A stretch of DNA of 22,286 bases from a virus: the IMG/VR virus record IMGVR_UViG_3300012954_000097, positions 1 through 22,286 of that record. One strand, 5' to 3'. Positions 2,144 to 17,879 of the stretch are shown one piece after another (the first letter of the stretch is position 1; each line of letters begins with the position of its first letter). The position numbers and the translations under genes are program-made. The notes beneath the pieces were generated by a model. It saw nothing but the letters and a program-made list of their open reading frames with translations, did no database searches and was not told where the DNA came from.

Positions 2144-5100
2144 ATGGGAAATCCTCTAAAGATAAAAGAAACAGTTGGCGGTACGTTTCTCGGATTGCAG
2201 GAAATGCAAACAACCGAGCAGGATTATGCCGTCCATCAAATCTTAACTGAATTCTCAACTTCACTAACAGGTTCTGGAACTATCAATATTGGTGGTGATG
2301 GAACATCAATGGGATCTTTTGTAGATACCACTTTAACTGGAAACTTAAGTGTTGGAGATCACCCAGGTCCTTTCAGCACTACAAGTTCAACATTCACCCT
2401 TAAACAAAACTTAGAGTCAATTGCAGAGACGTCTATGGTAACTCCATTATTCTTAAATGATGATGGATATGCTGCAGAGCATAGCAACAACCTTAATAGT
2501 ACTCTTATCTCAAGAGCACTATCTAACTTAACCTCGAATGGTCTTGGATCCTACTATCTATCAGCTACAAACCCCGACACTAGCCTTTATACAGACAGTG
2601 GATTTTCAATCACAGATTCAAGATTCTCAGGTAATTCAACTAATGATGTTGTATTTAAGTTATGGAGAAAAACCAAAGGCGTTTCTGCCCCTACAACTGT
2701 AAGAACTGCAAAGATATACAATAACAGTAATGTACAGGAAATGTCAGATGCAGACATTAAAACATTAGCAGCAAGATTAAGAAACCAGATAGCTGCAACA
2801 GGAATAGGGCAATATAAACTATCACAATCCAATCCAGCTGGCTCAGGTGAAACATGGGTACAAGTTGGATCAACTGTTTCAGATATAAGAAACAATTTAG
2901 CAGATCAAACATATGCAGCAACATATGAAGGTGTATACACTAAACAATACTCACAACAGTTCGAAGGAATATTTACTGCTAACTATAACAAACAATACGA
3001 AGGAACATTTAACAAAGCATATGTAGCAACTTACTTAGGACAATACACTGGAGATTTTGTAAAACAATATCTTGGAGAGTATGGAACATTATATGTTGGA
3101 AACTATACTAAAGACTATGAAGGAACATTTGTAAAACAATACGAAGGTACTTTTGAGGGAGTCTATACTGGTGTATATGTAAAACAATATCAGAATGATT
3201 ATTCTAAGTTATATCTTAAAACATACTTAGGTCAATACGAAGGTACATTTGAAGGTGCATTTGATAAACAGTATGAAGGAACATATGAAGGACAATTCCA
3301 AGCAACATATAGTACATTGTTTACAGGTCTTTATACTAAGACATATCTAGGACAATACACAGGAACATTCATTGGTCAATATGATAAGACTTATGAAGGA
3401 ACATTTGAGGGATCCTATGATACAACATACACAGGAGTATATGTTGGTGTATATTCAAAAGAGTACATAGGTGAGTATACTAAAACATATACTGGTCAAT
3501 ATGAAAAAGCATATGTAGGTGTTTATGAGAAACAATATCAAAACGATTACTCTGGAACTTACTTAAAGAATTATCTTGGACAGTATGAAGGAACATTCGA
3601 AGGAGCATTTGAGAAACAATATACAGGTTCTTTCTTAGGACAATATACTAAATCATATGTTGGTCAGTATACAGGACAATATACTAAATCATATGTTGGT
3701 CAATACACTGGTACATTTATAGGTCAATATACAAGAGCATATACTGGACTTTATGCTGGAAACTATAATAAAGAATATGAAGGTGCTTTTGTAGGTGTAT
3801 ATAGTAAAGCATATGAAGGATCATTTACACAACAATTCAGTAAACAATACACAGGAACTTATACTGGAATATATGTAAAACAATATCAAAATGATTACTC
3901 TGGAACTTATCTTAAAAATTATCTAGGACAATACGAAGGAACATTTGAGGGATCATTTGATAAACAATACGAAGGTACTTTTGAAGGAACATATACAAAA
4001 CAGTATCAAGGTGTTTATACTGGGATATATGTCAAAGCATATACTGGTATATACGAAGGACAGTTTGTAGGATTATACAGCAAACAATACGAAGGAAGTT
4101 TCAATAGAACTTATGCTGGTCAATATACTAAAACATATACAGGTCAATACACAGCTACTTGGGAAGGAGCATTCAATAAAACATATCTAGGAAACTACAC
4201 CAAACAATATAGTGGTCAGTATGAAGGATTGTTTACAGGAACATTCTCTGGTACAGCTAACTTTGAAGGTGTGTTTGCAGGATCATATACTGGTATATTT
4301 AACAAACAATATATCAAAACATACTCTGGTACATATACTGGAACGTATGATGGATCGAGAACTTATACAGGTCAATATGCTGACCAATATCAAAAACTTT
4401 ATATTGGTAACTGGACTAAATCATATACAGGACAATACAGTAGACAGTTTACAGGAACAAGAACATACACTGGACAATATACAGGAAACTTTAATAAAAC
4501 ATATCTTGGTACTAATTACGTAAAAGCATACACAAAACAATATGAAGGTACAAGAACCTTTAATGCTCAATACACAGGACAATATACAAAAACTTACATA
4601 GGTCAATATACTAAGTCATATACAGGACAATTCAACAAACAGTTTGAAGGAACCTTTGTAAGTACATCAGATTTCTTTACAGGTTTCTTCTTACATGGAA
4701 ACTTTGAAGGATCATACAATAGCAATTACAATAGAGATTATGTTACTCAGTATACTAAACTATACGAAGGAAACTATGTCAAAACATATGTTGGAGCATA
4801 CGTAGAACAATATACTGGCAACTATGAAAAACAATATACTGGTAACTATGGAAAAGCATATCAAAAAGCATATGTTGGCGAGTATGTAAAACATTATACA
4901 AAAACTTATGTTGGTCAATATGATAGAGTATGGACAGCAATATATGAAGGTTCATATACAGAGAACTATGTAAGAAACTTTGAAAAAGGATATACAAAAC
5001 AATACGCTGGCAACTATACTAGACAGTATCAAAAAGCATATGTAGGTATCTATTCTAAAAACTTCTTGAAACAATATACTGGTGTATATAATAGAATCTA

Positions 5101-8100
5101 TATTAAACAATATACTGGAGTATATAATAGATTATTTGCAAAAGCATATACTGGTGTTTATCTAGGATTATTTACTAAGACATATGCAGGATCATATTCA
5201 AAACAATATGCAGGACAATATGCTAAGATATGGCAAAAAGCATATGTTGGACAATACTCAAGACAGTTTGCAAGACATTATACTGGAGCATTTTCTGGTA
5301 CATATACTTTAAACTATGCTAAACAATATACTGGTGCATACAGTAGAGTTTATTCTGGAAACTATGAAAAATTATTTACAGGAACCTATACATCTGGATA
5401 TTCTAAACAGTATACTGGTAACTATGTAAAGACTTATGCTGGAAACTATGACAGAGCATACACTGGAACATATACAACTAACTTCCAAAAGGCATACACA
5501 GGACAATATACAAAAAGATATACAGGCCAATACAATAAACAATTTGCTGGTCAATATGCTAAAAACTATTTAAAACAATATACTGGTAACTATGATAGAC
5601 AATACTCAGGTACATATGCTACAACATATTCAGGACAGTATGCTACAAACTACTTAAGACAGTATTCAGGTCAATATACAAGACATTATTCTAAGCAGTT
5701 TACAGGTCAATATTCTACAAGTTATTCTGGTACATATAATACAACATACACAGGTTACTACAGTACACAATATACTGGTTCATATACTACAACATATACA
5801 GGATACTATGCTACTAACTATACAAGAGCATATGCAGGAAACTATGTAAGAGTTACAAGAACTCAACAATATACTGGATACTATACTGGTCCAGCACAAG
5901 TACAATACAGTGGACAGTATACAGCATATTATGAAACAGCATACACTGGACACTTCTCAACTGGTTACTCAGGATCTTACAATAGAACATTTACAGGTTC
6001 TTATACAACAGGTTATACATCACCATTTGGTCCAGTATATGGAGGTCCTTCTTCAAACTATCAAAGAGCTTATGTTAAATCAGTTAACTATGCTGGTCCT
6101 CCATTCTATGTAACTGGTAAGGTTGGATATGCAGCTCAATATGCAGCAAACGTAACATACAATAAAAACTATAACAACTCTAAATCATCATTTGAATGTT
6201 ATAACCAAGGACTGATCAACGGTGGACAAGAGTATTGTTCAGCAGCTGTTGGTGGTACTGTATTGTATCAGGCTCCTGTTACATATTCAAGAGCATTCTC
6301 TGGAAACTATGTAAGAGCATATTCAGGTACTTATGTAAGAGTTACAAGATCAACTAATTATAATAGATCAACAAGAACAGCTCAGTTCACAGGTCAATAT
6401 ACTGGTCCAGGTACAGCAGCTTATGCAGGAACATATGAGGGTCAGTTTACCTCTACATTTACTGGATATTATAACACAAGTTATTCAAGAGCATATGCTG
6501 GTAACTATGTAAGAGTAACAAGTACTGCTCAATTCTCAAGAGCATTTGCTGGTAACTATGTAAGAGCATTTAGTGGATCATACTCAAGAGTCACAAGTAC
6601 AGCTAACTTTACAAAACAATATGCAACATCATATACTGGACTATATGGTACAAACTATACAAGACAATATACTGGTAACTATGTAAGACAATATACAGGA
6701 CAGTATACAAAAAGATATACTGGTACATATGGAACAAACTATACAAAACATTATACCGGTAACTATACAAAAACTTATGCAGGAAACTATGACAGACAAT
6801 ACTCTGGTACATATACAACAAACTTCCAAAAAGCATTCTCTGGAAACTATACTAAGAGATATACTGGTCAATATAATAAAACATTTACAGGACAATATAC
6901 TACAACCTATTCAAGAGCTTATAGTGGAAACTATGCAAAAATATTTACCGGAAACTATACTAAGACATTTGAAGGTCAGTTTACAAAACAATATCAGAAA
7001 GCATATGTAGGATCATATGCAAGACAATTTGCAAAACATTATACTGGAACATTTGCTGGTACATACACTACAAACTATGGTGTACAATACACTGGTAACT
7101 ATACAAGAGCATATGCTGGAACATTTAACAAACAGTATGAAGGTCAGTATAGTGGAACATATAATAAACAATATGCAGGAGCATTCAGTGGTACATATAA
7201 CAAACAATACGAAGCTGCCTATACAGGACAATTTGGAAGAAACTATTCTGGTGAATATGCTGGTACATACACATCTAACTATAGTAAGCAATATTCAGGT
7301 ACATTCGGAAAACAATATGTAGCAACATACACAGGTCTATTTACAAAGAACTATGTTGGTCAATATGATAGAATATGGACTGCTTTGTATGAAGGAGCAT
7401 ATAATAAACAATACACTGGAAACTATGAAGGATCTTATGCAAGAAACTATACAAAGAACTTTGCAGGTCAATACACAAGAGCTTATGTAAGACATTATAG
7501 TAAGTCATATGAAGGTGCATATAACAAAGGATATGTTGGCGGATTCAATAAACAATACGAAAAGAATTATACTAAATCATATACAAAAACTTATGTAGGA
7601 ATATATACAAAACACTATGCTGGACAATTTGCTGCACAGTATGTTGGTGTATATGAAGGAACATTCCAAGGTGTATTCAACAAACAATATGAGGGTTCAT
7701 TCAACAAGCAGTATGAAGGACAGTATGCTGGATCAAGAACATATACTGGCCAATATTCTCAAAACTATACTAGAACCTATGCACCAGCTTATATCAAAAC
7801 ATATCTAGGACAATTTGAAGGAACAAGAACATACGAAGGTCAATATACTGGAACCTTTGAGGGTGTATTCAATACAACATATATTAGTTTAAATTATGTA
7901 AGAGCATATGCTAAACTATGGTCTGGATCAAGAACATATGAAGGTCAGTATGATGGAGACTACACAGGCTTCTTCAACAAAGCATATAACAAAGCATATG
8001 AGGGAACATATATTGGATACTATGTTGGAGTTTATGTAGGTGGTCAAGGTTATCAAGGAGTATATGCTGGAGTATATGAAGGACAATTTAATCAAGAATA

Positions 8101-9454
8101 TATTGGTGCATACACTAAGACTTATGTAGGTACATATGATGCAGTTTATGAAGGTACATTTGATAAACAATATACTGGTAACTATGTCAAGGCATATGTA
8201 GGACAATACACAAAAACATACGAAGGATCATTTACAAAACAATTCGAAGGATCTTTCAACAAACAATATGAAGGAACATTTATTGGTCAATATGAGAAAG
8301 CATATGTTGGTCAATATACAGGTCAATATACTAAATCATATGTTGGTCAGTATTCACAACTATTTGAAGGATCATATGCAAGACAATATGTTGGTACATA
8401 TGCTAAAGCATATTCAAAAGAATACGAAGGAACATTTGATGGCCAATATACAAAACAATACGAAGGTGCTTTCTTAGGAATATACAACAAAGCATATGAA
8501 GGCTCATTTACAAAACAATTTGTAACTCAATACGAAGGATTGTATGAAGGTGTTTACACAAAACAATATGAAGGATCTTTTGATCAACAATTTGAAGGTG
8601 TGTTCAATAAACAATACGAAGGAACATTTGAGGGAACCTATAACAAACAGTATGAAGGTTCATATGATAAGAACTTTACAAAAGTATATCTAGGACAATA
8701 CTCTCAACAGTTCGAGGGATCATACACAACTAATTATGTTGGAACATATACCAAAGCATATACAAAAGAATATGAAGGTGTGTTTACAACTCAATATGAA
8801 GGTACATTTAACAAAGTATACCTAGGAAACTATTCAAAAGATTACGAAGGTTCATTTACTGGTAACTATACAAAAACTTATGTAGGTCAGTATACTGGAC
8901 AATATAACAAAACATACGAAGGTGCATTTGATAAACAATTTGAAGGTGCATTCAACAAACAATACTCAGGTCAGTTTGTTGGTAACTTCGTGAAGCAATG
9001 GGCAGGTCAATATACAGGACAATATACTAAAACTTATGTTGGTCAATTCTCTAAATTGTTTGAAGGAGCATTCCAAAGACAATATGTGGGAACCTATGCT
9101 AAAGTATACAGTAAAGAATACGAAGGTACATTTACTGGACAATTTACGCAGAACTTTGAAAAAGCGTATATAGGAGTATATACAAAAGAATATCTTGGAG
9201 CTTATGGTGCTGCGTTTGTAGGCGATTATTCAAAGACATACACTCAACAATTTGAGGGTGCATTTGATAAGCAATATATTAAAACTTATGTTGGCTCATA
9301 TACAAAAACATATTCAAAAGATTATGTTGGCCAATATACTGGTTCATTTGAAAAGGCATACATTGGTAGTTATGACAATGCATGGTCTGGATCTACAATT
9401 CAGTCATCAACATCTACAATAAGCACAACAACATTGTGGGTTAGAGTAGCTTAA
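2144..9454 (+). CDS. Giant tyrosine-rich tetrapeptide-repeat virion fibre protein (2,436 aa)
   Basis: Residues 1-256 form a head domain like those I recall at the N-terminus of marine T4-like fibre or virion proteins (MGNPLKIKETVGGTFLGLQ; LWRKTKG; QEMSDADIKTLAARLRNQI), with an internal duplication (121-160 versus 205-249). Residues 257-2414 are units with an aromatic every fourth residue, of two types: xGx[YF] (e.g. EGTF) and x[K/R]x[YF] (e.g. TKQY). They are interrupted at residues 1292-1380 by a non-repeat island holding the only two cysteines I find (C1352, C1365). The tail (2415-2436) ends in STISTTTLWVRVA, a type of ending I recall from cyanophage virion proteins. Glu-Gly units dominate both ends; Thr/Arg units dominate the middle. 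No transmembrane segment or catalytic motif was seen. The ATG has only a weak ribosome-binding site; a late promoter box lies 46 bases upstream. Structural role is inferred; exact attachment is unknown. Confidence 0.88.
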   Translation: MGNPLKIKETVGGTFLGLQEMQTTEQDYAVHQILTEFSTSLTGSGTINIGGDGTSMGSFVDTTLTGNLSVGDHPGPFSTTSSTFTLKQNLESIAETSMVTPLFLNDDGYAAEHSNNLNSTLISRALSNLTSNGLGSYYLSATNPDTSLYTDSGFSITDSRFSGNSTNDVVFKLWRKTKGVSAPTTVRTAKIYNNSNVQEMSDADIKTLAARLRNQIAATGIGQYKLSQSNPAGSGETWVQVGSTVSDIRNNLADQTYAATYEGVYTKQYSQQFEGIFTANYNKQYEGTFNKAYVATYLGQYTGDFVKQYLGEYGTLYVGNYTKDYEGTFVKQYEGTFEGVYTGVYVKQYQNDYSKLYLKTYLGQYEGTFEGAFDKQYEGTYEGQFQATYSTLFTGLYTKTYLGQYTGTFIGQYDKTYEGTFEGSYDTTYTGVYVGVYSKEYIGEYTKTYTGQYEKAYVGVYEKQYQNDYSGTYLKNYLGQYEGTFEGAFEKQYTGSFLGQYTKSYVGQYTGQYTKSYVGQYTGTFIGQYTRAYTGLYAGNYNKEYEGAFVGVYSKAYEGSFTQQFSKQYTGTYTGIYVKQYQNDYSGTYLKNYLGQYEGTFEGSFDKQYEGTFEGTYTKQYQGVYTGIYVKAYTGIYEGQFVGLYSKQYEGSFNRTYAGQYTKTYTGQYTATWEGAFNKTYLGNYTKQYSGQYEGLFTGTFSGTANFEGVFAGSYTGIFNKQYIKTYSGTYTGTYDGSRTYTGQYADQYQKLYIGNWTKSYTGQYSRQFTGTRTYTGQYTGNFNKTYLGTNYVKAYTKQYEGTRTFNAQYTGQYTKTYIGQYTKSYTGQFNKQFEGTFVSTSDFFTGFFLHGNFEGSYNSNYNRDYVTQYTKLYEGNYVKTYVGAYVEQYTGNYEKQYTGNYGKAYQKAYVGEYVKHYTKTYVGQYDRVWTAIYEGSYTENYVRNFEKGYTKQYAGNYTRQYQKAYVGIYSKNFLKQYTGVYNRIYIKQYTGVYNRLFAKAYTGVYLGLFTKTYAGSYSKQYAGQYAKIWQKAYVGQYSRQFARHYTGAFSGTYTLNYAKQYTGAYSRVYSGNYEKLFTGTYTSGYSKQYTGNYVKTYAGNYDRAYTGTYTTNFQKAYTGQYTKRYTGQYNKQFAGQYAKNYLKQYTGNYDRQYSGTYATTYSGQYATNYLRQYSGQYTRHYSKQFTGQYSTSYSGTYNTTYTGYYSTQYTGSYTTTYTGYYATNYTRAYAGNYVRVTRTQQYTGYYTGPAQVQYSGQYTAYYETAYTGHFSTGYSGSYNRTFTGSYTTGYTSPFGPVYGGPSSNYQRAYVKSVNYAGPPFYVTGKVGYAAQYAANVTYNKNYNNSKSSFECYNQGLINGGQEYCSAAVGGTVLYQAPVTYSRAFSGNYVRAYSGTYVRVTRSTNYNRSTRTAQFTGQYTGPGTAAYAGTYEGQFTSTFTGYYNTSYSRAYAGNYVRVTSTAQFSRAFAGNYVRAFSGSYSRVTSTANFTKQYATSYTGLYGTNYTRQYTGNYVRQYTGQYTKRYTGTYGTNYTKHYTGNYTKTYAGNYDRQYSGTYTTNFQKAFSGNYTKRYTGQYNKTFTGQYTTTYSRAYSGNYAKIFTGNYTKTFEGQFTKQYQKAYVGSYARQFAKHYTGTFAGTYTTNYGVQYTGNYTRAYAGTFNKQYEGQYSGTYNKQYAGAFSGTYNKQYEAAYTGQFGRNYSGEYAGTYTSNYSKQYSGTFGKQYVATYTGLFTKNYVGQYDRIWTALYEGAYNKQYTGNYEGSYARNYTKNFAGQYTRAYVRHYSKSYEGAYNKGYVGGFNKQYEKNYTKSYTKTYVGIYTKHYAGQFAAQYVGVYEGTFQGVFNKQYEGSFNKQYEGQYAGSRTYTGQYSQNYTRTYAPAYIKTYLGQFEGTRTYEGQYTGTFEGVFNTTYISLNYVRAYAKLWSGSRTYEGQYDGDYTGFFNKAYNKAYEGTYIGYYVGVYVGGQGYQGVYAGVYEGQFNQEYIGAYTKTYVGTYDAVYEGTFDKQYTGNYVKAYVGQYTKTYEGSFTKQFEGSFNKQYEGTFIGQYEKAYVGQYTGQYTKSYVGQYSQLFEGSYARQYVGTYAKAYSKEYEGTFDGQYTKQYEGAFLGIYNKAYEGSFTKQFVTQYEGLYEGVYTKQYEGSFDQQFEGVFNKQYEGTFEGTYNKQYEGSYDKNFTKVYLGQYSQQFEGSYTTNYVGTYTKAYTKEYEGVFTTQYEGTFNKVYLGNYSKDYEGSFTGNYTKTYVGQYTGQYNKTYEGAFDKQFEGAFNKQYSGQFVGNFVKQWAGQYTGQYTKTYVGQFSKLFEGAFQRQYVGTYAKVYSKEYEGTFTGQFTQNFEKAYIGVYTKEYLGAYGAAFVGDYSKTYTQQFEGAFDKQYIKTYVGSYTKTYSKDYVGQYTGSFEKAYIGSYDNAWSGSTIQSSTSTISTTTLWVRVA
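3191..4234 (+). repeat. 348-nt super-repeat, three copies, left arm
   Basis: The tetrad QNDY followed by S[KG]xY, LKxY, LGQY, EGTF, EGxF, xKQY starts at 3191, 3539 and 3887. That is exactly 348 nt (29 units, 116 residues) each time. Copies 1 and 2 also agree further on (TGTF IGQY at units 15-16, VGVY SK[EA]Y at units 22-23). Copy 3 matches mainly in its first seven units. Confidence 0.85.
6017..6283 (+). other. Non-repeat central island in the giant fibre gene
   Basis: Residues 1292-1380 break the four-residue register. They contain Pro-Gly turns (SPFGPVYGGPSSNY; NYAGPPFYVTGKVGY) and a Cys-x12-Cys loop (C1352, C1365). The island sits at 6150, while the midpoint of the whole repeat array is 6148.5. 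It could be a turn, a receptor-binding tip or a disulfide-pinned loop. This is inference; no homologue is recognised. Confidence 0.75.
8078..9121 (+). repeat. 348-nt super-repeat, three copies, right arm
   Basis: Copies span 8078-8425, 8426-8773 and 8774-9121, each exactly 29 units. They end with VGTY [AT]K[AV]Y [ST]KEY and share EG[ST]F at unit 7, EGxF-xxQF-EGxF-NKQY at units 13-16 and SxxF-EGxx at units 24-25. The period equals that of the left-arm super-repeat, although the motifs are different. Confidence 0.85.
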
Positions 9455-9464
9455 CTGTTGACCT

Positions 9465-9472
9465 TATAAATA
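9465..9472 (+). promoter_or_regulatory. T4-type late promoter (TATAAATA)
   Basis: An exact TATAAATA, followed by C, lies in the 58-base gap after the giant gene and 40 bases before the ATG at 9513. It matches the T4 late promoter consensus, and an intergenic position makes it more credible than a coding hit. A 12-bp perfect palindrome (ATAGTATACTAT, 9477-9488) lies just downstream, near the expected transcription start. Confidence 0.75.
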
Positions 9473-9512
9473 CATTATAGTATACTATGAACTTCAAATT
9501 TGAGAAATTATT

Positions 9513-10070
9513 ATGGAAGATGTAAAATATGCAAAGGTACCAACAGGTATGACAATTGATAAACCTAGTGAAGAACCTCAGCAAGAGAAAAGAACTACTA
9601 AAGAGAAACCTCTAAGTATTAAAGACTTTGACATAGATCCAGGTTTACCTGTGATACAATATCCACACTACACTAACAATGCTAGATCAGAATTAGGCTG
9701 TCTATTGATAAGACCTGATGGTATGGTTGTTCAAGAAAAAGGCATTAAAGCTGATAAGAACAATCCACTGTTCAGAGATATATTAGCACAGTTTACAGAA
9801 GCTGAGATAGATACTAATACCAAAAGAGAAATACAAATAGCTTCGTCACGTGATAAAGCTATGCAAAGTATAAAAGAAGACGAGGAAAGAGAAAAGACTC
9901 GTCATGAACTTTGGGAAGTTAAGTCCAGCTTTATGGATTTAGATGTTGTTAAGAATAGTGATGAGAAACTGCTAAAGAGACAAATAAGAAAAGCAACCAA
10001 TTACTTTGAGGCTTTTGCTTACGGTGTTGCAGTTATTGTTAAGGAAAGCGAGAAGAACAAAAGTGAATAG
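9513..10070 (+). CDS. Hypothetical charged cytoplasmic protein (185 aa)
   Basis: I do not recognise this protein. It is highly charged, with a Lys/Glu-rich N-terminus (residues 14-40), a middle section around LPVIQYPHYTNNARSELGC, then IRPDGMVVQEKGI. A long, probably helical Lys/Glu/Arg region covers about residues 90-165, and the C-terminus is YFEAFAYGVAVIV. No signal peptide or membrane segment was seen. It is the first gene after the late promoter at 9465, so late expression is likely, and it overlaps the downstream glycosyltransferase by eight bases, which suggests translational coupling. It could be a minor virion or assembly factor, but nothing in the sequence decides this. Confidence 0.8.
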   Translation: MEDVKYAKVPTGMTIDKPSEEPQQEKRTTKEKPLSIKDFDIDPGLPVIQYPHYTNNARSELGCLLIRPDGMVVQEKGIKADKNNPLFRDILAQFTEAEIDTNTKREIQIASSRDKAMQSIKEDEEREKTRHELWEVKSSFMDLDVVKNSDEKLLKRQIRKATNYFEAFAYGVAVIVKESEKNKSE

Positions 10071-10899
10071 AGGCTACTTAGTAGTAGCTACATTATCTAA
10101 GCCTTTTTATGATGCTGCGATAATGGCTATTGAAAGTTTAAAGGATGAAGTGCCTAATGCTAAGGTTGCGTTCTATACTCATGAAGAATGGATAGAGGAC
10201 AGACATAGGCATCTATTTGATCATTTAACTACACCCGTACCTGTTCATTGTAGAACAAAGTTATGGGCATTACCTCTATCTCCATTTGATCAGACTATCT
10301 ATCTTGATGCTGACATTATGGTACTAAGTGATGAGATAGAAGAAGTATGGGATCATTTAGGAAATCATGATGTTGTAATGTCAGAGAATAGACCTTATAA
10401 TGCTAAGGTAGTTTATTTTACACATGATGATCAAGTTGGACCAGGGATACCTGGAAGAGAGTTAGAACACTATAACGAAGACCATATAAAACTTTATAGA
10501 GAAGGAAAAGCTCATAAGTTTAGATGGCATTGTGGAATGTTTGCTTGGAATAAAAACGAACGTACACAGAAGTTATGGGAAGACTGGATGTATTGGTATA
10601 AGAGACATACAGTAGAAAAGAACACTAAGCCATTTCCAAAGAAATTAGCTTTTTGGGATACATTTGCTTTTTGGAGAGCTCTTTATGAGAATCCAGATAA
10701 CAATGTTGATATAGTGCGTTTACCTAATGACGCTAAATATAATTTTGTAACCGGATATAGGGAAGCCGAGTTACGAGCCGGGCATGAGAAGGCTGTATTA
10801 CATTACACCATTCCGCCCGACTTATCAGAGAGGGGGAACCTATTTAAAGATGCAACAGATATTGACGCTGCCTACGGATCTTTTAAACATTTTAAATGA
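10063..10899 (+). CDS. GT8-like nucleotide-sugar glycosyltransferase
   Basis: The product is predicted to transfer a sugar from a nucleotide-sugar donor to an unknown acceptor in the host cytoplasm. Evidence: an N-terminal beta-strand opening (YLVVATLSKPFYDAA), then LWALPLSPFDQTIYLDADIM, which carries the metal-binding DxD motif (D82-A-D84) in the usual GT8 context. HCGMFAWNK (156-164) resembles the family's N-x-G-[VM]-F segment, followed by DTFAFWRAL and the late histidine H247 (AVLHYTIPPDL). I chose the GTG at 10063 (278 aa). The frame extends upstream to an ATG at 10006, but that would overlap the previous gene by 65 bases and adds a non-family N-terminus, whereas a purine-rich stretch precedes the GTG. 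Neighbours are giant tyrosine-rich fibres and an oxygenase-like gene. The acceptor could be a virion protein, host surface glycan or DNA. The last ~150 bases have more GC-ending codons than the rest. Confidence 0.8.
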   Translation: MNRGYLVVATLSKPFYDAAIMAIESLKDEVPNAKVAFYTHEEWIEDRHRHLFDHLTTPVPVHCRTKLWALPLSPFDQTIYLDADIMVLSDEIEEVWDHLGNHDVVMSENRPYNAKVVYFTHDDQVGPGIPGRELEHYNEDHIKLYREGKAHKFRWHCGMFAWNKNERTQKLWEDWMYWYKRHTVEKNTKPFPKKLAFWDTFAFWRALYENPDNNVDIVRLPNDAKYNFVTGYREAELRAGHEKAVLHYTIPPDLSERGNLFKDATDIDAAYGSFKHFK

Positions 10900-10915
10900 T
10901 TACAGCTCATTTGTA

Positions 10916-11569
10916 ATGGAAAACAGACCGGATAAAAATATGCCTAACTGGCCTACTAGAGGCAAATTTATGAAAGAGGACAGGCCAGAATTTTCAACAT
11001 CATTAGATTGTTTGGCAAGTATGAACCATAATGATCATGATGGATACCCACCAGATAGTTTTGGGTATGACTTAAATACTCAGACGTTAAAGAAAACTTT
11101 AACTGAAGAGGGACATAGATTTACTAACGAAGAGAAAGAATGGATTGACAAGTATATGGATAGATCCAAACAACTCGACGATGAACTTGGAAGAGTTATA
11201 GGTTATAAATTTTGTGCACTTAAAATGTTTTATCCAGAGAATGGATATATTGCATGGCATACAAATTGGAATGTACCTGGATTCAATTGTTTATTTACTT
11301 ATGGTGATGGTAATGGTTATTGGCGTCACTTAGACAGTTCAGAAGAAAAAGAAGGTTCTATTATTCCAGATTGGAATAAGAAACTTGTACACTTACAAGA
11401 TCCAAAAGGATGGCATTGCAAACTTGGGTACTATGGTGAGAAGAAAGAACACAATAAAATTATGTGGCACAGTGCATATGGTGGTCCTAGAATAACATTA
11501 GGATGGGTTGTGTATGATGAAAACATCTGGGCAGATATAGTAGAGGAGTTAACAGAACTTGAATCTTAG
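10916..11569 (+). CDS. 2-oxoglutarate/Fe(II)-dependent oxygenase-like protein
   Basis: The fold is inferred from three cues in the C-terminal half. A candidate first iron-ligand motif lies in YIAWHTNWNVPG (H115-T116-N117). A distal histidine and a 2-oxoglutarate-binding arginine lie in WHSAYGGPRITLGWVV (H185, R192). GYKFCALKMFYPENG beta-strands precede them. In the family the first motif is normally H-x-D/E, so the Asn at 117 is unusual; activity may be altered or the true ligand may be elsewhere. A substrate (protein side chain, nucleotide or small molecule) cannot be named. The start is uncertain: I use ATG 10916, 16 bases after the previous stop. An in-frame ATG at 10784 would overlap the glycosyltransferase by 116 bases, with a sequence that looks like a shadow of it. 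It is probably co-transcribed from 9465. Confidence 0.65.
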   Translation: MENRPDKNMPNWPTRGKFMKEDRPEFSTSLDCLASMNHNDHDGYPPDSFGYDLNTQTLKKTLTEEGHRFTNEEKEWIDKYMDRSKQLDDELGRVIGYKFCALKMFYPENGYIAWHTNWNVPGFNCLFTYGDGNGYWRHLDSSEEKEGSIIPDWNKKLVHLQDPKGWHCKLGYYGEKKEHNKIMWHSAYGGPRITLGWVVYDENIWADIVEELTELES

Positions 11570-11888
11570 AAAGGACTACAAGTATGCTCTAGTAGAAGAG
11601 TATAAAACTTATTGGAATGCATATCAAAATCCTAATGAGTTTTATTCTGATCTATTAGGATTAGGTGAATACTTTAGTAAACATTTTAAACTAAGAAAAG
11701 ATGTTGTCAGAGGATCTAATGGTAAGACTGATCTGTTTCTTATAGATCAAAATACATTATGGTTCGTAGTGTATGGCAAGACAAAAAGGTCATTAATGAC
11801 TATTGAAGGGTCGAGAGAAGAAGAGTTGACCTTTAGATGTAAACAAAATAGAATCATACATAGCAGAAAAATAGTACCTTGTAATTAG
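11559..11888 (+). CDS. Small hypothetical protein (109 aa), TTG start
   Basis: Not recognised. The frame starts at TTG 11559, with a good ribosome-binding site (AGAGGAG, 11541-11547) inside the 3' end of the oxygenase-like gene; the two overlap by 11 bases. The product is basic and rich in Tyr/Phe in its first half (DYKYALVEEYKTYWNAYQ; FYSDLLGLGEYFSKHFKLRK). A short beta-rich section follows (TDLFLIDQNTLWFVVYG), with two cysteines near the end. No signal peptide or membrane helix was seen. It is the last gene of the 9465-led block; a new late promoter follows 17 bases downstream. Confidence 0.7.
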   Translation: MNLRKDYKYALVEEYKTYWNAYQNPNEFYSDLLGLGEYFSKHFKLRKDVVRGSNGKTDLFLIDQNTLWFVVYGKTKRSLMTIEGSREEELTFRCKQNRIIHSRKIVPCN

Positions 11889-11905
11889 ATACAACTTTCT
11901 TTTCG

Positions 11906-11913
11906 TATAAATA
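11906..11913 (+). promoter_or_regulatory. T4-type late promoter (TATAAATA)
   Basis: An exact TATAAATA followed by CCTC lies in the 49-base gap between two genes, 24 bases before the ATG at 11938. It would give a leader of about 20 bases carrying the AGGAGAGG ribosome-binding site. It is the likely start of the structural-gene transcription unit. Confidence 0.8.
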
Positions 11914-11937
11914 CCTCTGTATTAGTAGGAGAGGTTA

Positions 11938-12267
11938 ATGGCGACCAGAGTAAACATTGTTATTGATCAAGGCACAGACTTTGAGACATCAGTAAACTTA
12001 ACAGACGCGACAGGTGCACAGTTAGATATGACTGGCATGACTGCTGCCGCACAAATTAGAAAACATCACACATCTAGCAACTCTACAGCATTTGGCACAT
12101 CTTTAGCCAACACGACTGGCACTCTTACACTTACACTAAACAACTCAGTGACATCTAGCTTGACAGCTGGACGATATGTATATGATGTAGAGCTAACTGA
12201 TTCTTCTAGCAAGATCAGTAGAATACTTGAAGGTATAGTTACTGTAACTCCGGAGGTTACAAGATAA
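11938..12267 (+). CDS. Small virion structural protein, beta-sandwich type (109 aa)
   Basis: The product begins ATRVNIVIDQGTDFETSVNL and continues with LDMTGMTAAAQIRKHHTSS, a Thr/Leu-rich strand region, GRYVYDVELTDSS and EGIVTVTPEVTR. I recall this arrangement in small structural proteins of cyanophages and pelagiphages; it also resembles baseplate upper-protein N-terminal domains. It is all-beta in appearance, with no cysteine or signal peptide. The ribosome-binding site is strong (AGGAGAGG). It leads the virion-gene cluster and overlaps the next gene by one base (TAATG). The exact virion location is unknown. Confidence 0.75.
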   Translation: MATRVNIVIDQGTDFETSVNLTDATGAQLDMTGMTAAAQIRKHHTSSNSTAFGTSLANTTGTLTLTLNNSVTSSLTAGRYVYDVELTDSSSKISRILEGIVTVTPEVTR

Positions 12268-12521
12268 TGGCAAATACTTTATTCAACAATACATCTTCAA
12301 ATATCAAAGTCAACATTGGCACACAAAGTGGCGGTATAGTTGGTAGTACTATTGGCAATAATGCAATAACACTTACAAGTCAGAATATAGGTAAAACTAA
12401 ACTAACTGACTTAACTGACGTAAATGACGCAACGGAGGTAGATGGGGGCACATTGGTATACGATGCAACTACGGATGAATACATTCTTCAAGCATTGAAT
12501 GTCGATGGGGGCACCTTTTAG
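12267..12521 (+). CDS. Small virion/fibre protein with C-terminal DGGTF motif (84 aa)
   Basis: A low-complexity N-terminus (NNTSSNIKVNIGTQSGG) is followed by IGKTKLTDLTDVNDATEVDG, a tail-fibre collar-type sequence I recall from marine myophages, then DGGTLVYDATTDEYILQ and the terminus NVDGGTF. DGGT occurs twice, both times encoded GAT GGG GGC AC. The start is ATG with GGAGGT nine bases upstream, in the tail of the preceding gene. The stop overlaps the next start (TAGTG). It is probably a fibre or baseplate component, but may work only with its larger neighbour. Confidence 0.7.
   Translation: MANTLFNNTSSNIKVNIGTQSGGIVGSTIGNNAITLTSQNIGKTKLTDLTDVNDATEVDGGTLVYDATTDEYILQALNVDGGTF
12504..12515 (+). 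promoter_or_regulatory. Ribosome-binding site embedded in the DGGT codons
   Basis: GATGGGGGCACC encodes Asp-Gly-Gly-Thr at the end of the 84-aa protein. It also puts GGGGG nine bases before the GTG start at 12521, deciding that start. GGG is a rare glycine codon elsewhere in these genes. Confidence 0.6.
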
Positions 12522-15500
12522 TGGCTAATAGTGTAATTCAGATAAAAAGAAGTAATACCGAGGCAACAGCATCGAACCTTGCCTTTGGTGAATTAGCTTA
12601 TTCTTTAGTCAGTAATAATTTATTCATTGGTACAGATTCCAATACTGTAATTAAGATTGGTGGTGCATCAGATTCACAACTAGTAAATGTAACTGCTGGT
12701 ACATTAAAGAACGGTGCTGCATTAGTTGTAAACAGTACTGGTGGTGTAGATCAATTAACAGTACAAGATTTATCTGTTAGTTCTAATGTAGTAGTAGTTG
12801 GAAATGTTACATCTAACACAATAGATGGTAAACAAGTATTTGCAAATACATTAGAAGTAACAAGTAGCACAACAGGCAATCAAGCATCATTCCAAGATGT
12901 ATCAATAGCTAACACATTAACAGTAAATGGATCCATAACACTTAGAGGTGATAACATAAACCTTGGTGATGGTGGTGATGTAATATCTTTAGGTGCTACT
13001 GTTAATGATAACATCATACCAACAACAACACAAACATTTAACTTAGGTTCAGCATCACAACAATTTACTATGTTGTTTGCTAACCAAGTAACAGTCAATG
13101 CTACACCTGCTGCTGACTTTGAAGTTGCTAACAAAAAATATGTAGACGATTCACTTAGTGGAATAAGCACAGTAGGAAATACAACACAATTAGGTGCACC
13201 AGCAGATGGTGTATTTGCAAACGGTTCAGGTTCAGGGAATATAGAGGGGGCTGTAACATCAATATCTAATACAACAACAGTTACAGAAGCTATAGATTCT
13301 ATGAATGAAGTTATGTTTAACATACATCAACAAACATATGTACGTGATGTAGTAACAACATGTACTTCAGGAAATACAGGTGGCGCGCCATTAACTGCCA
13401 CCTTAACAATTAATGTCGTTGGAAACGCCAACGCATTTGATATCAACTGGGGGGATGGAAATTATACCAACAATACGACGGACTCGACGCCATCTCATAC
13501 TTATACGGATAATACCAACTCCCCTTTTGATATTGTAGTGACTGCAAGAAACACTGGAGCACTTGGTGAAGGTAATTCTGCAACACAAACAGTAACAGAT
13601 TTAATTACATTGTTTACAGCTGATCCAGTAGCTGACTTTGATATAATGTCAGCAGTATCTGGTGGAAGTGAAATAACATCAGCTAATGTAAACCAAACAA
13701 TATATGTAGACAATGATACAACAAATGCTAATGATGTAGTAGCAACTTTCAATATTGATTGGGGTGATGGTAGTGCAAACGCTATTTCAAATACATCAGT
13801 AGCTGGTGGTCCTCAAGGAGCAAGAGAACCACATACCTATACTTCTGCAACAGGTACAGGTACAAGTACAATAACACTTTCTATCAATACACACTCTACT
13901 GCAGATCCTTCATCATTACCAAGTAGTGCAACTAAAACTATAAAGATATATGATACATCAATAGCAGCACCAGAAGGATTGTCTGGAAAGACATTTAGTT
14001 TAACAACATCATCAGTAGGAAGTTCACCTAAGTTAGCTCAAGGTCATATAGACAATTCATCAGAAAGTACATTAGGTGAAGGTGATAGTATAACAAGATA
14101 TACTACATCAGGAGCTATTGAAACAACTGGTGAAGCTAATTCACAAGTTACATATAATGCTGGAGCAGGAACATTATCAGCAATAGTAGATGGATCAGCT
14201 GATGGAGCTATTGCATTTGATAGTAGTGATAACACAGGAACAAATCAATCATTAGTAGTCGTAGATGAATTAGACTTTAATGGATTCGATAACGATGGTG
14301 ATGCAACTTCAGCAGCAACATCAATATATGCACCAGGATTATATTCTGGATTTAGAGCAAGAGTATCTAAGTCAAGTTTAACTACAGGTGTTCATACATA
14401 TAAACTTTCACATAGTACTACAGGAAATACTTCTGTACTACAATTTGTAAAAGATAACTTAACTGGAAAACCAGTAATGAACTTTAGTGGTACTACCTTG
14501 ACACAGAACTCTGCAGGCACTTTAGCGTATGTGTCAGGTGTACCTTATTATACAAATGATGCAACTTTAAATGTTGTAGGTGCTTTAGTAAGTAATGTAG
14601 CAGGTCAAGTATATAAAGATGATAGTACTCCATTCAATATAAGTAGTGGAACAAATATAGAAGGTGATAGTGGTTCAGCATTTGCATCACAAACAAAAGC
14701 ATATACTATCCTACCAAGTTCAACATTAAGCAGTGGTAAGCCAAAAGCTAATACTGGTGTTGGAGCTAATGTAAGTATAGACACATTCCAAATAAATGTA
14801 AATGGTGGTGGAAGAAGAGTAGAAGGTTTTGGAATGAATATGGAAAATGTAAATGGAACAGGAGACACATTACAATTTGCAAATACAAAAGTAGCAGTAT
14901 ACAACGGAACTTCAAGTGGAGTTAATGAATCAGCAATACCAGTATCAGATAGTTTAGGTGCTGGATTTGATACTGATGGATTAAGAATTATAACAGGATG
15001 GTCTGGTGCAACTCCAGCATTCAATAGTGGACAAGATTACTATGCAAGTAATAATTGGACAGGTGCAGTAACTGTTGCTGGAACAGATGAAGCAATAGTA
15101 AGATATGGAACTTTAGCTCATAACCAGAATAATTATTCTACAGGATTCCTTCCAGCAGGACCAGACTTAAGCTCTGGAAGATCAGGTACACAGTTTTTTA
15201 GATTTGCTTTTAAAAGAACAACAATGTCAAATATGACAATAAAATTAACAACTGGTGGTTTAACATCATTCCACATTGCAGCTCCTAATACAGATATAGA
15301 CGATGCATCATCTATTAATGGTTGGTTAGATGCATCAGCAACATATGCAGGTGCTGGTACTCCTGGAGCAGATACAGGCAATGGTGGTAATGGTTCAGAT
15401 GGTTGTGCATTTACTTCTGGTGATAGAATACAAGCTAGTACAAGTTATACTAACCAGACATTTACATTAACTCTTGGTGATCAGAATGCATCAGATGCTT

Positions 15501-15571
15501 ACAATAATCAAATATTAGTAAGTGTTGGATTAGCAGATGGTCAATCAATTACTAAATTGGAGGTCGAATAA
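12521..15571 (+). CDS. Large virion/tail-fibre protein with PKD-like domains (1,016 aa)
   Basis: The N-terminus (VIQIKRSNTEATASNLAFGE) is a fibre head module shared with the genes at 16563 and 17951. Residues about 50-260 are repetitive beta-rich fibre sequence. Two PKD-like domains follow, marked by INWGDGNYTNN...HTYTDN (about 306-350) and IDWGDGSANAIS...PHTYTS (about 413-455). The middle is Ser/Thr/Gly-rich. The C-terminal domain (about 880-1016: FRFAFKRTTMSNMTIKLTTG; NGWLDASATYAGAG; NGSDGCAF) resembles the end of large cyanophage structural proteins as I recall them. The start is GTG, overlapping the previous stop, with GGGGG nine bases upstream. No catalytic motif was seen. Likely role: a long fibre or baseplate decoration binding surface polymers. 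Codons of the first PKD domain (13379-13525) are visibly more GC-rich than the rest. Confidence 0.82.
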   Translation: MANSVIQIKRSNTEATASNLAFGELAYSLVSNNLFIGTDSNTVIKIGGASDSQLVNVTAGTLKNGAALVVNSTGGVDQLTVQDLSVSSNVVVVGNVTSNTIDGKQVFANTLEVTSSTTGNQASFQDVSIANTLTVNGSITLRGDNINLGDGGDVISLGATVNDNIIPTTTQTFNLGSASQQFTMLFANQVTVNATPAADFEVANKKYVDDSLSGISTVGNTTQLGAPADGVFANGSGSGNIEGAVTSISNTTTVTEAIDSMNEVMFNIHQQTYVRDVVTTCTSGNTGGAPLTATLTINVVGNANAFDINWGDGNYTNNTTDSTPSHTYTDNTNSPFDIVVTARNTGALGEGNSATQTVTDLITLFTADPVADFDIMSAVSGGSEITSANVNQTIYVDNDTTNANDVVATFNIDWGDGSANAISNTSVAGGPQGAREPHTYTSATGTGTSTITLSINTHSTADPSSLPSSATKTIKIYDTSIAAPEGLSGKTFSLTTSSVGSSPKLAQGHIDNSSESTLGEGDSITRYTTSGAIETTGEANSQVTYNAGAGTLSAIVDGSADGAIAFDSSDNTGTNQSLVVVDELDFNGFDNDGDATSAATSIYAPGLYSGFRARVSKSSLTTGVHTYKLSHSTTGNTSVLQFVKDNLTGKPVMNFSGTTLTQNSAGTLAYVSGVPYYTNDATLNVVGALVSNVAGQVYKDDSTPFNISSGTNIEGDSGSAFASQTKAYTILPSSTLSSGKPKANTGVGANVSIDTFQINVNGGGRRVEGFGMNMENVNGTGDTLQFANTKVAVYNGTSSGVNESAIPVSDSLGAGFDTDGLRIITGWSGATPAFNSGQDYYASNNWTGAVTVAGTDEAIVRYGTLAHNQNNYSTGFLPAGPDLSSGRSGTQFFRFAFKRTTMSNMTIKLTTGGLTSFHIAAPNTDIDDASSINGWLDASATYAGAGTPGADTGNGGNGSDGCAFTSGDRIQASTSYTNQTFTLTLGDQNASDAYNNQILVSVGLADGQSITKLEVE

Positions 15572-16317
15572 TGGCTATCAGTGATACCCAAAAAGTAGAC
15601 CTGCTGTGGAAGAAGGTTGGATTTAGTAAAACTAAAACAGATACTAATGCCAATAAGAAAGCTCCTAACGAAGCTATTGTATCTGATTTAATTATCAAAC
15701 CAGCAGAAGTATGGTCAGATGTAGGATCCATACCATCTACAATACCAGGATCCAATACTTCTATACTTAGAATATATACAGAATTAGAAACAACAGAAGA
15801 CGGAACAGCAACAAATAACAGAACATGGAAGACAGGAACAACTAACTGGGTGCCACCAAAGTTTGGTGCTACATATCAATTAAAGGTATATGTAGATAGT
15901 GCTGGATCAAGTAATCCAGCATCTAACGGAACACAGTTATTTGAAACTGGATCAGGCAATGATGACGAATGGTACTTTGATTATCAATCAGGTACATTGA
16001 ATTTCATTGGAACTAATTTACCATCAGGCGTATCTGATGGAAAAAGCATTTTTGTATCAGGAGCAAAGTATCAAGGAAATACATTTGCTACTGGAATCAA
16101 AGATGTAACATTATACAATGCAACGATTGATAGTCTTGCATCACCATTAAAGACATCAGATGGTGGTACAGGATTAAACACTTTTACAACTAGTGGTGTT
16201 TTTTATGCAAGTAATACTTCGACAATGGCTCAGGTAACTGGAACAGAAGGAAAAGTATTACAAGCAGGTTCAGGAGGAACACCAGAGTTTGATGATTTAG
16301 ATGGGGGAACTTATTAA
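15571..16317 (+). CDS. Virion structural protein of the marine T4-like type (248 aa)
   Basis: The N-terminus (TQKVDLLWKKVGFSKTKTD, then ANKKAPNEAI) and the middle (FDYQSGTLNFIGTNLP, SDGKSIFVSGAKYQG) match a structural protein conserved in marine T4-like phages as I recall it. Residues about 190-248 are phage tail-repeat sequence (TSDGGTGLNTFTTSGVFYAS; GTEGKVLQAGSGGTPEF) ending in DDLDGGTY. It is beta-rich with no cysteine. The ATG overlaps the previous stop (TAATG) and has GGAGGT six bases upstream, formed by the Leu-Glu-Val codons of the neighbour. Its own tail carries the ribosome-binding site for the next gene. Confidence 0.8.
   Translation: MAISDTQKVDLLWKKVGFSKTKTDTNANKKAPNEAIVSDLIIKPAEVWSDVGSIPSTIPGSNTSILRIYTELETTEDGTATNNRTWKTGTTNWVPPKFGATYQLKVYVDSAGSSNPASNGTQLFETGSGNDDEWYFDYQSGTLNFIGTNLPSGVSDGKSIFVSGAKYQGNTFATGIKDVTLYNATIDSLASPLKTSDGGTGLNTFTTSGVFYASNTSTMAQVTGTEGKVLQAGSGGTPEFDDLDGGTY
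16300..16310 (+). promoter_or_regulatory. Ribosome-binding site embedded in the DGGT codons
   Basis: GATGGGGGAAC encodes Asp-Gly-Gly-Thr at the end of the 248-aa protein. It places GGGGG exactly nine bases before the ATG at 16317, the same spacing as at 12504-12521. Confidence 0.6.
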
Positions 16318-16553
16318 TGAGTGGTTTGAATGATTTAGATAGAGATGAATTAGAGATGTTAAGTCAATACATACAAAATCAACAACAGATTATAAATGAA
16401 TTAACAGAAAAAAATATGCAATTAACTACTGAAATACAAGTACAAAGATTACGTATCAAAGAGCTTGAACAAATAAATAACGTAAAGAGTAGACATAAAA
16501 GAAGGACAAGTCCCTTCGTTTTAGAAAGATTGCAAGACGCTATAAAAGATTAG
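16317..16553 (+). CDS. Small coiled-coil protein (78 aa)
   Basis: Residues 5-56 have heptad-like spacing of Leu/Ile with many Gln/Glu/Lys (YIQNQQQIINELTEKNMQL, IQVQRLRIKELEQI), predicting a coiled coil. A basic segment (KSRHKRRTSPF) and a short amphipathic end (VLERLQDAIKD) follow. There is no signal peptide or cysteine. The start overlaps the previous stop (TAATG). Its place between fibre genes suggests an assembly chaperone, trimerisation factor or linker, but no homologue is recognised. Confidence 0.7.
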   Translation: MSGLNDLDRDELEMLSQYIQNQQQIINELTEKNMQLTTEIQVQRLRIKELEQINNVKSRHKRRTSPFVLERLQDAIKD

Positions 16554-16562
16554 GAGATATAA

Positions 16563-17879
16563 ATGGCTTCAATTATTAAATTAAAAAGGTCGTCAACCGC
16601 AGATGCGGTACCGGCAAATAACGCGTTGCAGACTGGTGAGTTAGCTATAAACTTAGCAGATAAGAAGCTATTTTCCGCCAATGCAACAGGACACACAATA
16701 CAGTTATCAGGTGATGACTTTACTATTGGAACAACTGCAAACACAGACAATGGTACAGTAACATTAACAGGTACAGGTAATGGATCCAATTCAACACTAA
16801 CAATTAGTGGTGCTAATGGTATAGGTGTAACATCTGATGGTTCAGGTGCAATTACAGTTACAGCAAACACCGTAGATGTAGACCTTGCAACAGTAGCAAA
16901 CACATCATCAGCAAACTTAGTATTATCTGGTGGTGGTGAATCAGAAACAGTTAAACTATCTGGTAACAATGGACTAGTAGTTGCTGCAACTAACACAAGT
17001 AATATTGTACTTGAGAACAAAGGTGCACAGCATGTAGTTACTGTAGTTTCTGATGGCGGAAATAAATACGCTATCGATGGAACAACACAGCAAGCATTAA
17101 GATTAGTACCAGGTGTTATATATTGGTTCGATCAATCAGATTCATCTAACAGTAACCACCCATTAGTTTTCAGTACAACTGATAACGGTACTCATGGTGG
17201 TGGTTCTGAAATATCACAAGGTACAGCAAGTGGTTTTGAGATATATGAAAAAGTAGGTACTCCAGGTAGTGCAGGTGCATATACAAGAATTAAACTACAA
17301 CAAGATGCTGGTAATTTATATTATTACTATTGTTCTCAACATGGTGGTATGGGTGCAGCTGCTTATGTAATGGCAGATAACTATTACAGTAATGCTTCAC
17401 ATTTCATAACAACACAACCATTAAACGTAACTGGCGTTGGTACATTCTCAGGTAATGTATCAGCTTCTCATGTTATAGCAAGTGGTGATGCTGATATTTC
17501 AGGTGAAGTAAATGCAGCTACAGCAGCTATTGTTGGTAATGCTACAGTTGGTGGTAATATGGCTATTACTGGTGACTTAACAGTATCAGGTACAACAACT
17601 ACAGTAAGCAGTACAACAGTAAAAATTAATGATAGTATGCTATCACTTGCTGATAACCAAACTGGAACAGGTCTAGATGAAGTAGACGTAGGTTTCTATG
17701 GAACACATGATGTAGGTGGAACAGATAAGTTCTCTGGAATATTTAGAGACACATCACATTCAAATAAGGCATTTGTTGTTGTTGAAGGAATAACAACAGA
17801 ACCGACTGGAACTGTTTCATATTCAGCTTCTGAACTTGGACAGCTAGATGCAATCATTGATGGTGGGACTTACAGTTAA
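16563..17879 (+). CDS. Virion/tail-fibre protein with cupredoxin-like domain (438 aa)
   Basis: The shared fibre head (MASIIKLKRSSTADAVPANN) covers residues 1-50, then a Thr/Gly-rich beta region. Residues about 155-272 look like a cupredoxin-type fold: YWFDQSDSSNSNHPLVFSTT with H199, a GTHGGGSE loop, GTPGSAGAYTRI, and YYYYCSQHGGMGA with C257, H260 and M263. The His + Cys-x2-His-x2-Met set resembles type-1 copper ligands. Residues about 325-438 are tail-fibre sequence (SGTTTTVSSTTVKINDSMLS; DVGFYGTHDVGG) ending in IIDGGTYS. I recall the same modules in marine phage fibres. The ATG has GGAG five bases upstream. Whether metal is bound is unproven; the domain may be only a stable adhesive fold. 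Confidence 0.8.
   Translation: MASIIKLKRSSTADAVPANNALQTGELAINLADKKLFSANATGHTIQLSGDDFTIGTTANTDNGTVTLTGTGNGSNSTLTISGANGIGVTSDGSGAITVTANTVDVDLATVANTSSANLVLSGGGESETVKLSGNNGLVVAATNTSNIVLENKGAQHVVTVVSDGGNKYAIDGTTQQALRLVPGVIYWFDQSDSSNSNHPLVFSTTDNGTHGGGSEISQGTASGFEIYEKVGTPGSAGAYTRIKLQQDAGNLYYYYCSQHGGMGAAAYVMADNYYSNASHFITTQPLNVTGVGTFSGNVSASHVIASGDADISGEVNAATAAIVGNATVGGNMAITGDLTVSGTTTTVSSTTVKINDSMLSLADNQTGTGLDEVDVGFYGTHDVGGTDKFSGIFRDTSHSNKAFVVVEGITTEPTGTVSYSASELGQLDAIIDGGTYS

Follow-up and report, generated by a model that had tools for sequence, protein, structure and literature searches.

We propose that an open reading frame from a marine bacterial virus (IMGVR_UViG_3300012954_000097; the window is the entire 22,286-nucleotide stretch analysed here) encodes a giant fibre protein whose chain very probably folds back on itself, so that two antiparallel arms are zipped together tetrad by tetrad between a shared base and an island at the apex. 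We also consider it probable that the protein and its relatives represent a new class of fibre, in which a single chain is folded back with about a thousand residues per arm, facing tetrads follow a pairing code and arm length varies nearly fortyfold, from 35 to about 1,330 residues across the family. A fold-back hairpin predicts an exact register between the arms, complementary motifs at facing positions, equal arms at any length and paired breaks in the repeat. The initial annotation had put forward such a hairpin, and comparative sequence analysis supports the proposal, as all four features hold in most of the family.

The reading frame (2144-9454; this and all features below lie on the + strand) specifies 2,436 residues. 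Its N-terminal base domain (2144-2890) is kept in 235 relatives from viral contigs, with an AlphaFold pLDDT of about 90 in models of relatives. From 2912 on, the protein consists of nearly unbroken aromatic tetrads of the form [YF]-x-G/K-x, with an aromatic residue at every fourth position; this register is lost over a non-repeat island (6017-6283), the proposed hairpin apex, and regained on its far side. The left arm comprises an outer part built of 348-nt super-repeats (2912-4243), a break zone with FSGTANF and three [ST]RT[YF] breaks (4244-4660), a bulge (4655-4705) and an inner part (4706-6016) with irregular, VRVT-type breaks beside the island. The right arm starts with an irregular stretch that also bears VRVT-type breaks (6284-6607) and continues through an inner part (6608-7660), a break zone with [ST]RT[YF] breaks and YVGGQGY (7724-8053) and an outer part again made of 348-nt super-repeats (8051-9376). 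A C-terminal segment (9377-9451) that ends in TTLWVRVA is kept throughout the family, and its tryptophan lies level with that of an N-terminal GETW motif. The two arms had initially been described as equal in length around the island, and the coordinates given then hold: they span 3,105 nt (2912-6016) and 3,102 nt (6284-9385), or 1,035 and 1,034 residues. The island contains two cysteines and differs strongly in sequence among the giant homologues; the islands of the window protein and of relative L003 have two cysteines each and share the sequence NVTYN.

An ungapped self-comparison of the window protein revealed strong self-matches inside each outer arm, where the super-repeat period is 116 residues. 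Arm-to-arm matches outside these super-repeats (residues 919-936/1734-1751, 1031-1068/1618-1655, 1061-1138/1508-1585, 1118-1158/1517-1557 and 1219-1238/1440-1459) have their midpoints at residues 1323-1343, in keeping with the common axis noted at the outset. Cross-matches between the outer super-repeats have the same centre on average and are scattered about it because of the 116-residue period. Similar blocks that keep their direction from one arm to the other, on which the initial annotation had based its mirror arrangement, thus do exist in mirror order, but their residues are not matched one to one; exact correspondence is antiparallel and links positions that satisfy i+j=S.

As mirror-ordered similar blocks allow several causes, we grouped residues according to tetrad position and scanned all sums S for residue coupling, that is, for the information that residue i holds on residue S-i. 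The scan bore out the mirror order of the two arms as a sharp register, with a single peak in relatives L003 (S=3374, z 16.9), L008 (S=3071, z 13.0), L006 (S=1384, z 8.4), L002 (S=2359, z 8.2) and L015 (S=2875, z 24.0). No comparable peak emerged when five of the six giants, counting the window protein among the six, were scanned for parallel offsets (maximum z 4.8), and shuffling the right-arm tetrads removed the mirror peak (maximum z 3.9 in 60 shuffles of five proteins). The peak of the window protein (S=2675, counting nt 2141 as the start of residue 1) is the weakest among the giants with a z of 4.4, ranks at the top of 3,552 sums and exceeds the highest value seen in 12 shuffles (z 3.5). 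A single sum gives a modest z here because the register of this protein is S=2673 outside the break zone and S=2677 inside it. Scored by these two registers, the window protein gave r=0.76 for the outer parts (2912-4243 against 8051-9376) and r=0.77 for the inner tetrads (those of 4706-6016 against 6608-7660), with slid controls reaching at most 0.39 and 0.42, respectively. Mirrored positions, which the initial annotation had wished to see compared with randomly paired ones, are thus coupled much more strongly than slid or shuffled ones. Secondary coupling peaks occur at S plus or minus 2.

Inspection of the facing tetrads revealed what is paired with what. Aromatic residues lie opposite aromatic residues, and at the third tetrad position, in facing pairs pooled mainly from L003, L008 and L006, glycine faces glycine 226 times (113 expected) and lysine faces threonine 63 times (26 expected), while lysine faces glycine 17 times (84 expected). 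Facing tetrads agree in glycine state in 232/243 cases in L003, 196/210 in L008 and 117/127 in the inner part of L002; the window protein shows agreement in 104/118 outer and 77/87 inner pairs, together 181/205. With sums slid by multiples of a tetrad, the correlations averaged about zero and peaked at 0.18-0.55, according to protein. Moreover, unrelated motifs meet at mirror positions. All seven facing pairs of left-arm QYDRIW and right-arm TNIY motifs in L003 sum to 3372, and one extra DRxW at residue 690 is without a TNIY partner. Three motif pairs in L008 sum to 3069, and a fourth motif, of the DRVW type (residue 1031), lies opposite a variant, TNVY, at the matching place. A distant subgroup of the family has GAKTY opposite GTSAY-like motifs, with GAKTY in either arm; the KTY/SAY pairs sum to 692 (three pairs, L044), 678 (three, L062), 694 (three, L089), 664 (two, L073), 652 (two, L074) and 872 (four, L057), and they share one sum in L053 and L083 as well. 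Three non-glycine tetrad pairs of the YDTT/YTAT type sum to 632 in L092. The presence of different motifs at facing positions is not explained by duplication alone, as copying of blocks would not create them.

The breaks in the repeat are mirrored too, as had been suggested initially. Those of the window protein lie 463, 497 and 531-568 residues from the base on the left and 462, 500, 535 and 565 residues from it on the right, so that the two break zones (4244-4660 and 7724-8053) stand opposite each other. The bulge, FVSTSDFFTGFFLHGNF, is indeed without a partner, as previously pointed out, and the register shifts by one tetrad, from S=2673 to S=2677, across this zone. Break heights match between the arms in five giants, in which the break zones lie either 231 or 463 residues from the base; both arms differ together, and the difference of 232 residues equals two super-repeats.

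A search with the N-terminal domain yielded 235 relatives in viral contigs, 80 of whose sequences we retrieved, and two more in metagenome-assembled bacterial bins. The relatives are 301 to 3,138 residues long and nearly all end in a TVSTxxLWxRTA-like segment; both the base domain and the LWxRTA-like C-terminal segment are present in the window protein. Arm lengths were measured between fixed anchors in 27 shorter relatives with a recognisable tip motif, which include close kin and hence are not 27 independent cases; L045 and L046 were excluded because they gave no anchor match. Across a fivefold spread (left arms of 35-193 residues), left and right arm lengths were correlated with r = 0.9996 and a slope of 0.999. 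The left-right length difference was constant in 23 of these 27 relatives, and the equality of arms that the initial annotation had expected of homologues is thus residue-exact in them. A glycine-containing tip motif, YxxYYSGxxxG, is central even in relatives with 35-residue arms.

The same anchors predict the register. In five giants, adding the positions of the two anchor tryptophans gives a value identical to the outer register or lower by 1. In a composition-only, phase-free scan, which is weaker than the phase-aware scan in the giants and was used solely for this purpose, the anchor-predicted S (best within 4) ranked seventh or better among all sums in 23/28 members and first in many of them, including L015 (first of 4,503 sums). 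Coupling at the predicted sum was weak in L082 and absent in four of the 28 relatives (C48C1, L038, L068 and L069). The first of these four, hypothetical protein WJE88074.1 of phage C48C1 (Kyanoviridae), is the sole relative found among phage records and shares the N-terminal domain with the giant protein at about 30% identity; this 3,347-residue protein (L001 9983-20026) has other repeat types. Two further members stood out at the level of their genes. L004 (13414-19704) and L002 (13387-19761) encode near-identical giants, and the right arm of L004 is without one 28-residue unit; either arms can differ or a repeat has collapsed in one of the assemblies. The giant fibre gene of L006 occupies two frames (9377-11341 and 11497-17397), owing to a real frameshift or an assembly error, and our analyses refer to the longer piece.

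Several other arrangements might be considered. Known fibres of the T4 and T5 types are homotrimers, and an ordinary parallel homotrimer with a composition that happens to be symmetric along its length would accommodate the enrichment of EG tetrads in the outer arms and of TGN tetrads in the inner arms. Such a smooth gradient would, however, lack a single-residue register, whereas the observed correlation collapses upon a slide by one tetrad, and we regard this arrangement as the least probable of all. The mirror order might instead record history alone, with nested tandem duplications at the centre of the gene leaving mirror-ordered blocks without any contact between the arms. In agreement with this idea, similar blocks share one orientation across the arms, and inner block pairs are closer in DNA sequence (0.75-0.83) than outer ones (0.66). 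In addition, similar blocks of the window share synonymous codons across the arms at 0.64-0.75, above a background of 0.56, and part of their similarity is therefore due to descent by copying. Joint lengthening of the arms may well come about by such nested growth. Yet such a history yields neither unrelated complementary motifs at exact mirror positions nor residue-exact antiparallel coupling without a parallel peak, nor matched arm lengths in divergent relatives, and as a full account we deem it highly unlikely. Inverted DNA repeats were considered as a DNA-level cause of the mirror and dismissed; they are scattered, short (16-30 nt) and off axis.

A slightly better, though still improbable, alternative is an antiparallel homodimer, in which two extended chains run head to tail, the left arm of one lies against the right arm of the other and the island marks the two-fold centre. 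Like a palindromic duplex compared with a hairpin, this dimer would give rise to the same i+j=S coupling and to equal arms. On the other hand, relatives with 35-residue arms keep the central, turn-like tip motif YxxYYSGxxxG, and a fibre with two identical base ends would be hard to attach to a tail. AlphaFold models of single chains are, moreover, confident for the C-terminal segment together with the base, an arrangement that a swapped dimer could produce likewise.

In the fold-back fibre that we favour, the base domain would launch the left arm, about 1,035 residues long, outward; the chain would turn at the island, and the equally long right arm would run back to the base in antiparallel orientation and bring the conserved C-terminal segment to the N-terminal domain. 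The arms would pair at i+j=S, aromatic with aromatic, glycine with glycine and lysine with threonine, with motif pairs such as QYDRIW/TNIY, GAKTY/GTSAY and YDTT/YTAT acting as matched teeth that fix the register, and with register breaks sitting at equal height in both arms. The alternation within the repeat, together with the secondary peaks of the coupling scan, suggests that each chain contributes two long antiparallel β strands. The chains probably assemble into multimers, and the variable apex is a candidate contact or attachment point. Arms would lengthen by insertion of matched units at equal height, perhaps near the apex, and subsequent selection for pairing could then account for both the mirror order and the exact register.

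In AlphaFold runs supplied with 25-30 family sequences, confidence was high for the base domain and for the C-terminal segment and mostly below 50 in the shaft. The model of L023 (314 residues) contains strands at 236-253/287-312 and 264-268/271-276, modelled at low confidence. Added together, the positions of their facing boundaries give 539-540, against a mirror sum of 540 expected from the anchors, and the modelled strands thus agree, if weakly, with a hairpin. VIA-align retrieved T4 gp11-type chains alone for this model (Z 2.1-2.4 over about 44 residues), matches too weak to be pursued. A Foldseek search with the L044 model against BFVD and PDB returned nothing at E below 1. The 2,436-residue protein, including its N-terminal base domain, had no match in Pfam, PHROG or NCBIfam, and a sequence search of the PDB gave none either. 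We found no description of such an architecture in open-access papers.

The gene is located in a T4-like tail-fibre cluster. The gene directly upstream (2-2137), whose copy is cut by the window edge, encodes a tetrad shaft that leads into a GP38-like adhesin domain (PF05268), whereas the giant protein has no match to GP38. Full-length upstream companions in L002 (9962-13390), L006 (5831-9370) and L008 (6761-9616) carry a mirrored shaft before the adhesin domain. Their best mirror sums, the best of 460, 570 and 197 tests, respectively, differ from a conserved shaft-end landmark by -2 (L002), -1 (L006) and -2 (L008). The proximity of the mirror sum to this landmark suggests that the upstream protein likewise probably folds back; the landmark is absent from the companions in L005 and L007. 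Downstream genes encode a glycosyltransferase, tail-fibre proteins, the head closure protein Hc2 and a tail sheath stabiliser. The glycosyltransferase gene within the fibre cluster is family 8-like (Glyco_transf_8; 10030-10896), and a 1,016-residue protein (12521-15571) has the unannotated phage family phrog_8578 as its sole match. With fibre, adhesin and glycosyltransferase genes beside neck genes, the locus follows the pattern of the published host-recognition cluster of marine T4-like phages (PMC7029224). This position beside a GP38-like adhesin makes it likely that the giant protein serves as a very long tail fibre in host recognition.

Among known fibrous proteins, we compared the giant protein with two groups. 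Hairpin-like rod models with both ends close together have reportedly been proposed for filamentous haemagglutinin-type adhesins (FHA, CdrA). FHA-type adhesins are right-handed β-helices with longer repeats, and we know of no four-residue aromatic unit or inter-arm pairing register in them. The long tail fibres of T4 are parallel homotrimers. T4 gp34, the structure of which has been described (PMC5537660), gp36 and gp37 resemble the giant protein in being encoded by very long, repetitive fibre genes in a T4-like tail-fibre cluster with an adjoining adhesin; in the sequence of the giant protein, the two halves are coupled in an antiparallel manner, whatever the mutual arrangement of whole chains may be, and there is no sequence match to T4 fibres.

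If the proposed fold is correct, contacts spanning as many as about two thousand residues could be read from the sequence, almost as base pairs can in an RNA stem-loop, and phage fibres, known to date as parallel multimers, would gain a fold-back architecture. With fully extended strands, at 0.33-0.34 nm per residue, the length of an arm (about 1,035 residues) would be roughly 0.35 micrometres, more than twice that of the T4 long fibre. Pairing between facing tetrads could explain how very long fibres keep their register and how their arms change length jointly. It would also constitute a natural code for long fibres and make the build of giant marine phage fibres directly testable.
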